In this document: in pieces, positions 18,881 to 62,314 of the stretch
Layout of the letters: each line of letters begins with the position of its first letter
How positions within the stretch are numbered: position 1 is the first letter of the stretch
NCBI RefSeq assembly: GCF_015999305.1
Contig: NZ_JAEAGP010000001.1
Location: 372,001-436,000, forward strand
Reading direction: 5' to 3'
DNA: 64,000 bases
Origin: Erythrobacter sp. YJ-T3-07
GTDB taxonomy: Bacteria > Pseudomonadota > Alphaproteobacteria > Sphingomonadales > Sphingomonadaceae
Position numbers and translations under genes: made by a program
The notes under the pieces: model-generated
What the model was told of the DNA's origin: nothing
Databases searched by the model: none
Seen by the model: only the letters and a program-made list of their open reading frames with translations

Positions 18881-20470
18881 GTGACTGACATCGCTATCCG
18901 CAGGGCTCTCCTTTCGGTTTCCGACAAGGAGGGATTGCCCCAGCTTGGCCGCGCCCTCGCCGACCGGGGCGTGGAACTCGTATCGACCGGTGGCACCGCC
19001 AGGGCGCTGCGCGAAGCGGGGCTGGAGGTGCGCGATGTCTCCGACCTGACGGGCTTCCCCGAGATGATGGACGGGCGGGTCAAGACGCTCCACCCCAAGG
19101 TCCACGGCGGGCTGCTGGCGCTGCGCGACAACGACGATCACGTCGCCTCGATGCAGGAACACGATATCGGCGCGATCGACCTGGTGGTGGTCAATCTCTA
19201 CCCGTTCGAGGCGACCGTTGCGAAGGGCGCGGACCGGCCCGAGGTGATCGAGAATATCGATATCGGCGGGCCTTCGATGGTCCGCTCGGCAGCGAAGAAC
19301 CACCAGTTCGTCACCATCCTTACCGATCCGGCGGATTATCCCACGCTGATCGCGGAACTGGAAAGCGGCAAGGGCTGCACCAGCCTCGATTTCCGGCGGA
19401 AGATGGCGGCCAAGGCCTTCGCCGCAACCGCCGCCTATGATGCGATGATCAGCCAGTGGTTCGCCTTTGCCGACCAGCAGCAGCAGTTTCCCGACTACCT
19501 CTCGGTCGGGGGCAAGGCACCCACGGTGCTGCGCTATGGCGAGAACCCGCACCAGCAGGCCGCGCTCTACACGCCGACCGGGCCGCACGCGCAGGGCATT
19601 GCGCAGGCCGAGCAGCTGCAGGGCAAGGAGCTGAGCTACAACAACTACAACGACGCCGACGCCGCGCTGGAACTGTGCGCGGAATTTGCCGGGCAGGATC
19701 CTGCGGTGGTGATCGTCAAGCACGCCAACCCGTGCGGCGTGGCCCAGCGTGGCACGCTGATCGATGCATGGAACGAAGCACTCGCCTGCGATAGCGTCTC
19801 GGCCTTCGGCGGGATCGTCGCGGTCAATCGCGAGCTCGACGGCGAGACCGCGCGCGCGATCTGCGAGATCTTCACCGAAGTCGTCATCGCGCCGAGTGTG
19901 AGCGACGAGGCGCGCGAGGCCTTTGCCAAGAAGAAGAACCTGCGCCTGCTGACCGTGGGCGACCTGCCCGATCCGCGGCGCGAGGGGCTCAGCGTCAAGC
20001 CGATCACCGGCGGCCTGCTGGTGCAGAGCCGCGACAACGCGACCATTTCGACCGATGATCTGAAGGTCGTGACGACGCGCGAACCGACGCAGCAGGAACT
20101 CAAGGACTGCCTGTTCGCGTGGACCGTGGCGCGCCACGTCAAGTCCAACGCGATCGTCTATGCCAAGGACGGCGCGACCGCCGGGATCGGCGCGGGCCAG
20201 ATGAACCGCCGCGATTCGAGCCGGATCGCCGCGATCAAGGCCGCCGAAGCCGCCGAGAAATACGGCTGGGCAGCGTCGCGCACGGTCGGCAGTGCAGTCG
20301 CCTCCGATGCGTTCTTCCCCTTCGCCGACGGCCTGCTGGCTGCGGCCGAGGCGGGCGCGACCGCGATCATCCAGCCGGGTGGTTCGATGCGCGACCAGGA
20401 AGTGATCGACGCCGCGAACGAGGCCGGTCTGGCGATGGTTTTCACCGGAATGCGCCACTTCCGCCACTGA
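18881..20470 (+). CDS. purH: Bifunctional AICAR transformylase / IMP cyclohydrolase
   Basis: The 529-residue enzyme performs the last two steps of IMP synthesis. The N-terminal MGS/IMP cyclohydrolase domain (about 1-200) has '[10 protein letters not shown]', 'STGGTARAL' and '[13 protein letters not shown]'. The C-terminal transformylase domain has '[12 protein letters not shown]', 'KHANPCGVA' (catalytic Lys-His) and '[14 protein letters not shown]'. Length is typical. It starts with GTG, 3 bases after the heparinase-like gene, so the rpe, heparinase and purH genes form one transcript. Confidence 0.98.
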
Positions 20471-59719: not shown

Positions 59720-59880
59720 GACGATTTCCTCAGGCTGCAGCGCGTGCCGGTGGCGACTGCCAGGAACGGCAGGGTCAGGATGGCGGCAATGGTCGCCCAG
59801 TCGGGCAGCACGTCGGCGATGTTGAGCAGCGCGACGATGATGATGGCGGCGCCCCAAAGGACAGGTGCAATGGCTTTCAT
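59716..59880 (-). CDS. 54-residue small membrane protein, first gene of the XRE operon
   Basis: This short frame encodes 54 residues with two hydrophobic segments (about 5-22 and 30-42), starting MKAIAPVLWGAAIIIVALLN and ending in a basic tail. AAGGAA lies 9 bases before its ATG. Its TGA overlaps the GTG of the next gene (GTGA), so it belongs to the operon by spacing, strand and start signal. I know no name for it. Together with the next gene it may form a small membrane complex. Confidence 0.7.
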   Translation of the reverse strand: MKAIAPVLWGAAIIIVALLNIADVLPDWATIAAILTLPFLAVATGTRCSLRKSS

Positions 59881-59899
59881 GGTCAAGGTTCCTTTCTTC

Positions 59900-59973
59900 T
59901 ATGGAAAGTACACTTGTCATAACTCGTTCGCCGTGTCAACCACCCTTTCCATATATGAAAGCGCCCTTGTCAA
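59900..59973. promoter_or_regulatory. Duplicated site AAAG-N4-CTTGTCA in the divergent control region
   Basis: AAAGTACACTTGTCA (59905-59919) and AAAGCGCCCTTGTCA (59958-59972) share 11 of 15 bases in the same orientation, 53 bases apart (start to start). Each is preceded by TATG and contains the dyad AAG-N4-CTT, fitting a dimeric XRE repressor. One copy lies 24 bases before the XRE operon start; the other lies just upstream of the candidate thrS leader promoter. Confidence 0.6.
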
Positions 59974-59982
59974 ATATGGTGC

Positions 59983-60010
59983 TGGACCTCGCGCGCTTGC
60001 GGCCTATATT
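59983..60010 (+). promoter_or_regulatory. Candidate sigma70 promoter of the thrS leader
   Basis: TGGACC (59983-59988) and TATATT (60005-60010) are separated by 16 bases; the -10 box matches 5 of 6 consensus bases. Transcription would begin near 60017-60018, which is the A of the leader ATG, so the transcript would start at or next to the leader start codon. Confidence 0.5.
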
Positions 60011-60017
60011 CGCGCCC

Positions 60018-60089
60018 ATGGCCATCGTGATCGCCTCGACTACGACCACCACGACCTCGGGCAACCGGGGGCGGATGGTCGCGTATTGA
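60018..60089 (+). CDS. Candidate thrS leader peptide with six consecutive Thr codons
   Basis: The 23-residue frame reads MAIVIASTTTTTTSGNRGR then MVAY and a TGA. Residues 8-13 are all Thr (60039-60056), encoded by ACT, ACG, ACC, ACC, ACG, ACC. It lies 225 bases upstream of thrS. Runs of the cognate amino acid mark attenuator leaders such as ThrL (Thr/Ile run) and PheM upstream of pheST. There is no ribosome-binding site, but the candidate promoter would make the RNA start at the ATG, as described for the leaderless trpL of Sinorhizobium. Ribosome stalling here would report low charged tRNA-Thr. Confidence 0.65.
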   Translation: MAIVIASTTTTTTSGNRGRMVAY

Positions 60090-60122
60090 GACGCGATTAT
60101 CGCCACCCGGGTTCGGGTGGCG
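60065..60122 (+). promoter_or_regulatory. Mutually exclusive RNA helices (putative attenuator) upstream of thrS
   Basis: CCGGGGGCG (60065-60073) can pair with CGCCACCCGG (60101-60110), 9 bp with one bulged A. The same second arm (60101-60109) pairs perfectly with CGGGTGGCG (60114-60122), 9 bp with loop GGTT. A third hairpin, GTCGCG/CGCGAT (60078-60083 and 60092-60097), has the leader stop codon in its loop. A ribosome paused on the Thr run leaves the first pairing free; one at the stop codon blocks it and lets the second form. No T-run follows, so the second hairpin may not act as a simple intrinsic terminator. Confidence 0.5.
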
Positions 60123-60176
60123 CTGCGCCTGCTTCCCCGAACCTGCAACCGGACGTCACGGCGCGGCAGGAATCCC

Positions 60177-60263
60177 ATGCGGTATTACATCGACACCGAA
60201 TTCAATGGCACCGACGGCCTGCGGCGAGAGCACCGTTGCCTAGCCGCGCTGTGCCGACCATAG
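60177..60263 (+). pseudogene. 28-codon remnant resembling a 3'-5' exonuclease N-terminus
   Basis: The frame begins MRYYIDTEFNG, which matches the first strand and D-x-E motif of DEDD-type 3'-5' exonucleases (RNase H fold), then turns into unrelated residues and stops at 60261-60263. GGCAGGA lies before the ATG. No in-frame continuation is seen, so this looks like a decayed or truncated copy sitting between the leader and thrS, or a chance resemblance of a short string. Confidence 0.4.
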
Positions 60264-60313
60264 GCGCTTGAACCTTATTCTCCCGAACCCTGCTCGGACG
60301 AAAGCACGACACA

Positions 60314-62314
60314 ATGACCGAACTGCTCAAGATCAGCCTGCCCGATGGCTCCGTGCGCGAGATGCCGGGAGGATCGACTCCGGCGGATGTCGCCGCCGCG
60401 ATCGGCCCCGGTCTCGCCAAGGCGGCGATTGCTGCCCGCGTGAACGGCGAACTGCGCGACATCACGCGACCCTTCGAAGGAGACGCGCAGCTTGCGCTGG
60501 TGACCAGCAAGGATGTCGACGAGGCGCTGGAGCTGGCCCGGCACGACTATGCGCACGTGCTCGCCGAAGCGGTGCAGAACCTGTTCCCCGGCACCCAGAT
60601 CACCTTCGGCCCGGCAACCGATGACGGCTTCTATTACGACTTCGCCCCTTCGGCGGAGCGTGGCGCTTTCACCGAGGAAGACCTCCCGAAAATCGAGGAG
60701 GAGATGCGCCGGATCATCGCCGCCGACACGCCTCTCGAACGCGAAGTCTGGACCCGCCAGCAGCTGATCCAGTGGTTCAAGGACCACGGCGAGAGCTTCA
60801 AGGCCGAATGGGCCGCCGAGCTCCCCGAGGGCGAGGAGCTGACGATCTACCGTCAGGGCGACTGGCTCGACATGTGCCGCGGGCCGCACCTTGCCAGCAC
60901 CGGCAAGCTCGACCCGCAGGCGTTCAAGCTGACGCGCGTGAGCGGTGCCTACTGGCGCGGCGACCAGAAGAACGCGATGCTCAGCCGCATCTACGGCACC
61001 GGCTGGCTCAACAAGAAGCAGCTGAACGAGCATCTCCAGCGGCTGGAGGATGCGGCCAAGCGCGACCACCGCAAGCTGGGCCGCGAGATGGACCTGTTCC
61101 ACCTGCAGGAAGAGGCGCATGGCAGCGTGTTCTGGCACCCGCAAGGCTACAAGATCTGGCGCCAGCTCGAATCCTACATGCGCCGCAAGATGGACGGTGC
61201 GGGCTATCGCGAGATCAAGACCCCGCAGGTGATGGACGCGCGCCAGTGGGAGCAGTCCGGCCACTGGGGCAAGTATCGCGAGAACATGTTCGTCATCCCC
61301 GACGAGGTGCCCAATACCGAGGACGGGGGCGAGCTGGTGTCCAAGGACGCCGACTGGATGGCCTTGAAGCCGATGAACTGCCCCGCGCATGTGCTCGTCT
61401 TCAAGCAGGGCATCACCTCCTATCGCGAGCTGCCGATCCGGCTGGGCGAGATGGGCTGCTGCCACCGCAACGAACCGCACGGCGCACTTCACGGGCTGAT
61501 GCGCGTGCGCCAGTTCACGCAGGACGACGCGCATATCTTCTGCACCGAGAAACAGGTGGTCGAAGAGGTTCGCGCCTTCATCGAACTGGCCGACAGCGTC
61601 TACAAGGATTTCGGCTTCAAATACGCGATCAAGCTGGCGCTGCGCCCCGAACAGCGCTTTGGCTCGGATGCCGATTGGGACAAGGCCGAGCAGGAAATGC
61701 GCGATGCCGTGGCCGAAGCGGGCATGATGAACGACGAGTACGGCTGGGAAGAGCTGCCGGGTGAGGGCGCGTTCTATGCCCCCAAACTCGAATGGCATCT
61801 GACCGACGCGATCGGGCGGACCTGGCAGGTCGGCACGATCCAGGGCGACCGCGTGCTGCCCGAGCGGCTCGATGCGAGCTATATCGGCGAGGATGGCGAG
61901 AAGCATCGCCCGGTGATGCTCCACCGCGCGATCTTCGGTTCCTACGAACGCTTCATCGGTATCCTGATCGAGCATTTCGCCGGCAAGCTGCCCGTGTGGC
62001 TCGCCCCGACGCAGGCGGTGGTCGCGACCATCGTTTCGGATGCGGACGACTACGCCAGCGAAGCGCTGGCCAAGCTGCGTGCCGCGGGCATTCGCGCCGA
62101 AAGCGATCTTCGCAACGAGAAGATCAACTACAAGGTGCGCGAGCACTCGCTCGCCAAGGTTCCGCATCTGCTGGTGGTCGGCAAGCGTGAGGCGGAGGAG
62201 GGCACGGTCGCCGTCCGCACGCTGGGTGAGAAGGAACAGCGCGTGATGAGCCTCGACGAGGCGATCGCGATGCTGCGCGACGGGGCCACGCCACCCGACC
62301 TGCGCGACGGATAG
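60314..62314 (+). CDS. thrS: Threonyl-tRNA synthetase
   Basis: The 666-residue class II enzyme charges tRNA-Thr. Domains: TGS (about 1-65), the editing domain with '[11 protein letters not shown]' and 'CRGPHL' (about 75-230) that clears Ser-tRNA-Thr, the catalytic core with the zinc cysteine C356 in 'MNCPAHV', '[12 protein letters not shown]' and '[14 protein letters not shown]', and the anticodon-binding domain (about 560-650). Length is standard. Upstream, a Thr-rich leader ORF and competing hairpins suggest expression rises when charged tRNA-Thr is short. Confidence 0.98.

Follow-up and report, generated by a model that had tools for sequence, protein, structure and literature searches.

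The thrS locus of Erythrobacter sp. YJ-T3-07 raises the question of whether expression of a threonyl-tRNA synthetase is adjusted by a short, threonine-rich reading frame in front of its gene, and if so, through which RNA structures. The window, the whole 64,000-nucleotide stretch of DNA analysed, carries the threonine--tRNA ligase gene thrS at 60314-62314 (+ strand, as are all features of the leader region described here); its identity is certain from TIGR00418, and its Pfam domains agree. The sequence comparisons reported below indicate that a Thr-sensing leader very probably controls this gene. If so, many sphingomonads would read charged tRNA-Thr directly at thrS, a task that falls to T-boxes in Firmicutes and, in E. 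coli, to ThrRS acting on its own mRNA.

A threonine-rich leader ORF upstream of thrS

As the initial annotation had described, a 23-codon ORF (60018-60089; MAIVIASTTTTTTSGNRGRMVAY*) with six consecutive Thr codons (60039-60056) precedes thrS. The end of its stop codon lies 224 nt before the thrS ATG at 60314. The Thr run is the presumed sensor of charged tRNA-Thr; from the last Thr codon to the end of the stop codon the distance is 33 nt in 61 of the 78 leaders compared. Six-frame translation of the window contains only two runs of at least six Thr codons, the leader's own and one at 19638, which is out of frame within an ORF (18881-20470) that we take to be purH-like. Named sphingomonad loci, counted without the 1000 nt that precede thrS, contain a single run of at least five Thr codons and none of at least six in 837,902 strand-bases. 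Conservation, presented below, is nevertheless stronger evidence than this rarity that the run exceeds chance.

Thr codons in the 78 leaders comprise 281 ACC, 117 ACT, 114 ACG and 24 ACA, and leaders may be biased towards rarely used Thr codons. ACT makes up 117 of these 536 codons, compared with a single one of the 27 Thr codons of thrS in the window.

The RNA from 60018 to 60177 is more stable than shuffled sequences (z -2.43; 3 of 200 shuffles as good). Searched against Rfam, T-box included, at the gathering threshold, the whole window returns two tRNAs only, and the segment 59900-60400 has no match even at E ≤ 5, with the thr leader among the models. Between the leader and the opposite-strand genes there is a direct repeat, TATGGAAAGTACACTTGTCA (59900-59919) and TATGAAAGCGCCCTTGTCA (59954-59972); ACTTGTC stretches resembling it also precede thrS at loci L199-L204.

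Alternative pairing arms and their distribution

The competing arms proposed in the initial annotation, at 60065-60073, 60101-60110 and 60114-60122, proved exact in position and form part of a longer series. Arm 1 (CCTCGG, 60055-60060) can pair with arm 2 (CCGGGGGCG, 60065-60073), which has an alternative partner in arm 3 (CGCCACCCGG, 60101-60110). Arm 3 may instead pair with arm 4 (GGGTTCGGGTGGCG, 60109-60122), which engages arm 3 through 60114-60122 or arm 5 (CCCCGAACC, 60135-60143) through 60109-60120. Arm 5 lies within the loop of a last hairpin, formed by arm E (60122-60130) and arm F (60160-60169), and folds of the window RNA contain a stop-codon helix (60075-60084 with 60091-60100) that extends 2:3. 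The first reading had missed arm 5, hairpin E:F and the stop-codon helix, together with a promoter-like element, P2, at 60235-60263.

A crude scan for Thr-run ORFs up to 1500 nt upstream of thrS found one in 35 of 110 collected thrS loci. Two were removed, L018, judged by eye to be part of a coding frame, and L106, from another order, leaving 33 sphingomonad leaders. A covariance model was built from arms 2-4 of 25 leaders with the Thr codons left out; near copies (L002, L003, L005) and long or shifted leaders (L031, L039, L044, L069, L074) did not enter it. The model was restricted to these arms because MAFFT displaced arm 5 in full-length alignments.

Against 199 genomes of the family, the model gave 52 matches at E ≤ 1e-4, all 52 upstream of thrS. 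Of these, 51 are on the same strand as thrS at a distance of 148 to 688 nt, and the remaining one lies ahead of a thrS start close to the end of its contig. Relaxing the cutoff to E ≤ 0.01 gives 62 matches, 58 of them before thrS, and at E ≤ 0.05 the element is present in 61 of the 199 genomes, representing 30 of the 96 genera. It is an RNA element kept before the same gene in almost a third of the sampled genera of the family, and one that no Rfam model reports at the locus. A Thr-rich ORF lies ahead of arm 2 in 50 of 50 pre-thrS matches fetched from new genomes (E up to 0.02), a few of which are genomes also present under a public name. The initial annotation had made its proposal depend on conservation of the Thr run and the helices in relatives; a Thr run is present in the 33 sphingomonad leaders and a Thr-rich ORF in all 50 fetched matches, and helices covary as described below, so the proposal withstands this check.

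A search of the class (289 genomes) gave matches at E ≤ 0.01 in eight genomes: three strong ones, belonging to the sphingomonad family, and five weak ones with no preceding Thr run. Matches away from thrS number nine in family and class together at E ≤ 0.01, and the eight examined (all but G125) follow no Thr run, so they were rejected as leaders. Conversely, among seven thrS loci without a model match, six have no Thr run and one (L203) has a short run, which indicates that the model misses degenerate copies; the stricter filters applied in searches of more than 40 genomes also lose weak matches. The 55 thrS loci without a leader show that thrS dispenses with it in many genomes.

Covariation of the pairing arms

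To assess covariation, the energies of duplexes formed by arms of one genome were set against those obtained when arms were exchanged among genomes (5000 permutations); the statistic is not tree-aware, so that relatedness may inflate z. In the first set of 25 leaders, z was -0.6 for 1:2, -3.8 for 2:3, -2.1 for 3:4, -8.0 for 4:5 and -5.2 for E:F, with five control pairings at -0.8 to +0.2. A hold-out set of 45 leaders, from which L150, L152, L195, L158 and L185 were excluded (same genome or near copies), gave -3.0, -4.6, -3.1, -8.1 and -2.8 for the same pairings. Seven control pairings in the hold-out set range from -2.7 to +2.8, and a z near 3 therefore means little there.

The covariation of 4:5 is firm, being matched by none of the 5000 permutations in either set, and that of 2:3 good. 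Hold-out leaders were picked by the model of arms 2-4, and because that model contains arms 2, 3 and 4, the values for 2:3 and 3:4 are not independent in this set; arms 5, E and F lie outside the model. The E:F helix is likely to be real. Its hold-out z depends on the sequence windows used: -2.8 with wide windows that include the P2 region, about 0 when they cut into E, and -5.7 (control +0.7) with windows reset after the sequences had been read. The pairings 3:4 and 1:2, which hardly vary, give weak signals in this test. Inserts between arms 3 and 4 occur in L187 and L192; by eye, they both extend 2:3 and change along with the leader (GGTTTCCC/GGGAAACC and GGCTTCCC/GGGAAGCC).

These patterns also bear on whether the conserved item is a peptide or trans-acting small RNA rather than a cis-acting switch. 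The class offers a precedent in peTrpL of Sinorhizobium meliloti, a trans-acting leader peptide according to the accessible part of PMC7298713. Here, however, the conserved residues other than the Thr run fall on pairing arms, the choice of Thr codon varies, paired arms change together, and every strong match precedes thrS, which makes action in trans very improbable.

Promoters and the end of the leader transcript

A candidate promoter, P1 (TGGACC-16-TATATT, 59983-60010, with the -10 at 60005-60010), was the single hit of a consensus scan for which shuffled sequence gave a mean of 0.2. Its placement predicts an RNA start at or beside the leader ATG, as had been suggested from the window alone, and the spacing of -10 elements in relatives fits this. 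A box agreeing with the -10 consensus GCTANAWC in at least five of seven positions stands upstream of the ATG in 57 of 78 leaders (mean 24.4 and maximum 34 in shuffled sequence), and one agreeing in at least six does so in 29 (shuffled mean 3.0). The gap from box to ATG is 6-7 nt in 44 of the 57 box-bearing leaders; 21 of the 78 leaders have no such box. The leader transcript is, on this evidence, probably leaderless. Shine-Dalgarno-like bases stand in front of 4 of the 78 leaders, which is weak evidence for the same point because thrS starts also have few (8 of 33 in the same test).

The second element, P2 (GTTGCC-17-CCATAG, 60235-60263), belongs to a pattern shared with relatives, in which a [CG]TT block is followed after 17 nt by a CCATNG-like block, 25-58 nt upstream of thrS. 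It occurs at 56 of 76 leader-bearing loci and at 13 of 55 loci without a leader, against about 0.6 and 0.4 in shuffles; the pattern was composed after the sequences had been seen, and L147 and L159 were left out of its count. P2 looks like a second, putative thrS promoter.

The lack of a T-run after the second hairpin, which the initial annotation had regarded as its weak point, persists: no intrinsic terminator was found in 59850-60350, and no U-tract follows F in the window or in its sphingomonad relatives. In relatives, T-rich bases just after F had been considered as a terminator tail and are better read as the -35 block of the P2 pattern. They were not counted as a terminator because the CTT block keeps a spacing of 17 nt from the CCATNG block.

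An inserted gene between leader and thrS

A 168-codon gene, intact, fills the interval from leader to thrS in 8 of 9 fetched genus mates; for the ninth, G005, the scan gave no leader. The gene is present at L002-L009 and L159; its carriers are the eight genus mates and a single genome from a different genus (G091). Comparison with genus mates shows that the window retains a 28-codon remnant (60177-60263) after a 440-nt deletion, its two matches to an intact relative overlapping by 8 nt. A search that finds the gene in 4 of 10 genomes detects no second copy in the window's genome. The product matches no Pfam or NCBIfam model at 1e-3; its start, MRYYIDTEFNG, suggests to us a presumed DEDD-type exonuclease.

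In the eight genus mates the ATG of this gene lies 158-163 nt past the leader ATG, just after F. With the ATG so placed and no U-tract after F, the last hairpin could, in this genus, mask the ribosome site of the inserted gene and so act on translation. As a general mechanism this does not hold, because the gene is deleted in the window and missing in most relatives, where only about 150-180 nt separate the element from thrS; a hairpin followed by six U in a second alphaproteobacterial family, described below, also argues against it. We therefore give translational control very little weight.

Predicted folding under assumed ribosome positions

RNAs of 76 of the 78 leaders were folded with assumed ribosome footprints, the other two being omitted for a short run or odd spacing, and a helix was scored if at least four base pairs were expected for it. 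The folds represent equilibrium, not kinetics. With the ribosome in the middle of the Thr run and the RNA cut before F, 2:3 forms in 59 of 76 leaders, 4:5 in 50 and 3:4 in 13; for a ribosome that has advanced to the last Thr codon, the corresponding numbers are 51, 51 and 27, and across folds in this position 3:4 persists in 27 to 36 of 76. A ribosome at the stop codon reverses the preference (3:4 in 52, 2:3 in 7, 4:5 in 16), and in the full RNA 3:4 rises to 60 of 76. The last hairpin, E:F, forms in the full RNA in 28 of 76 leaders with the ribosome at the stop codon, 21 ribosome-free, 15 with a mid-run stall and 8 with a stall on the last codon. This predicted ranking agrees with a relay of helices, yet E:F is a minority structure in every state. 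The window RNA folds as the relay predicts, except in its full length with a ribosome on the last Thr codon, where 3:4 and E:F win.

Median spacing is 7 nt from the last Thr codon to the start of arm 2 and 9 nt from the stop codon to the start of arm 3. Together with the folds, this spacing implies that a Thr stall would set 2:3 and 4:5, and that a finished leader would set 3:4 and sometimes E:F. The predicted switch thus has the polarity that a synthetase gene calls for.

The prominence of 3:4 at the stop codon, compared with that of E:F, would suit a simpler switch with the same Thr sensor and two states, in which 3:4 is the sole off structure, acting through Rho or pausing, while arms 5, E and F serve other ends such as P2, which F adjoins, or the 5' end of thrS. 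The strongest covariation, however, belongs to 4:5, which can form only when 3:4 is absent, and E:F covaries as well. This account consequently seems unlikely to us, and 3:4 was rejected as the whole switch since 4:5 covaries best of all helices. Of the attenuation reading in the initial annotation, the Thr leader, the pairing of the arm at 60101-60110 either way and the preference for the upstream partner on stalling are upheld. Its assignment of the final step to 3:4 (60101-60122) is probably incorrect, because arm 4, once freed, pairs with arm 5 (60135-60143) in the best covarying helix, across E:F.

Proposed mechanism

Our preferred reading, which we consider somewhat more probable than its alternatives taken together, is that the whole relay is a ribosome-mediated attenuator through which charged tRNA-Thr controls thrS. 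RNA would begin at the ATG of the leaderless 23-codon ORF. During a shortage of charged tRNA-Thr, the ribosome would stop within the Thr run and cover arm 1; arm 2 would then pair with arm 3, freeing arm 4 for arm 5, and the 4:5 pairing would impede E:F, so that RNA polymerase continues towards thrS. With tRNA-Thr in its charged form, the ribosome would reach the stop codon, arm 3 would pair with arm 4, arm 5 would stay unpaired, and E:F could form, cutting the transcript short. The second promoter beside thrS would provide basal expression.

Comparison of the leaders shows the linkage of the conserved Thr ORF to thrS, covarying arms in 2:3, 4:5 and E:F, a constant spacing and the promoter-like elements. 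From these we infer leaderless translation, the Thr stall and the order of events; E:F (or 3:4) would be the off structure, transcription would end without a U-tract, and P2 would be active. The relay and the missing U-tract make the mode of transcription stop a testable question.

Comparison with known systems

The sphingomonad element has several attributes of leader-peptide attenuators: a short ORF with a codon run for the amino acid of the controlled gene, mutually exclusive helices that sequence and folding predict to be set by ribosome position, and conservation upstream of thrS among relatives (61 of the 199 genomes of the family at E ≤ 0.05). A U-tract intrinsic terminator as the off structure is missing at the locus, and for this reason the claim is limited to an element that works like such an attenuator. 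The leader of the E. coli thr operon, a Thr-codon-rich peptide with competing hairpins, is similar in both respects; it differs in serving a biosynthetic operon, and its type gives no Rfam match at the sphingomonad locus. A chain of alternative helices is likewise known from the his attenuator, which alternates between a state of three hairpins and a state of two. There the 5' stem of the terminator takes part in the second alternative helix. The sphingomonad arm 5 instead sits within the loop that the stem of the last hairpin encloses, and that hairpin has no U-tract behind it. E. coli ThrRS autocontrol has the same target, thrS, and differs in that the enzyme represses translation by binding a tRNA-like element, without a leader peptide.

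Thr leaders with a classical terminator exist before thrS elsewhere in Alphaproteobacteria, as judged from sequence. In a Rhodospirillaceae bin (L106), thrS is preceded by MTARTTTTATTTRTSCGGP*, whose ATG comes directly after a TTGACA/GATATT promoter, and by a hairpin with six T behind it. Within the family of this genome (bin65), 10 of 11 genomes have a thrS match at E ≤ 1e-100, and a Thr leader is present at 8 of the 10 thrS loci (L207, L209, L211-L216); L208 is a cut contig with, by eye, the tail of a Thr leader, and L210 has none. These leaders share with the sphingomonads a Thr-run ORF by a promoter, competing hairpins and thrS next in line. They differ in the hairpin with six T, seen by eye in seven of the eight, L209 having a different hairpin with a short T-run. 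At L213, GATGCCGGTTTTTTC after the terminator hairpin is repeated, giving three successive T-runs before thrS. This second leader type in another alphaproteobacterial family raises the question of two origins.

The closest published case found is the leaderless thrL before thrS in Streptomyces lividans TK24, with two Thr in 18 residues and a hairpin that, according to its authors, has no clear U-tract (PMC8079986, as far as its accessible text describes). It shares these traits with the sphingomonad leader, and differs in having two Thr rather than six in a row, in belonging to another phylum, and in the single hairpin, with no relay, that this text describes. This was the only report of a Thr leader before thrS, alphaproteobacterial or otherwise, in a literature search outside of which most subscription papers lay; because of it, the novelty is smaller than the initial annotation had stated. 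The trpL attenuator of S. meliloti, also alphaproteobacterial and with an RNA that starts at the ATG, differs in its amino acid (Trp), its biosynthetic target gene and its transcription terminator, in the portion of PMC7298713 available. Binding of E. coli ThrRS to its own mRNA is reported in the accessible part of PMC8058203, and the corresponding part of PMC2965389 treats threonyl-tRNA synthetase for E. coli only.

Against these systems, the sphingomonad element appears to differ in its conserved 4:5 helix across the last hairpin, its missing U-tract and its putative second promoter. It is conceivable, if short of an even chance, that these features amount to a new layout: a leaderless Thr leader in which 2:3 followed by 4:5 opposes 3:4 followed by E:F, stopping transcription without an intrinsic terminator, via Rho or the crossing of 4:5 and E:F, directly atop a second thrS promoter.
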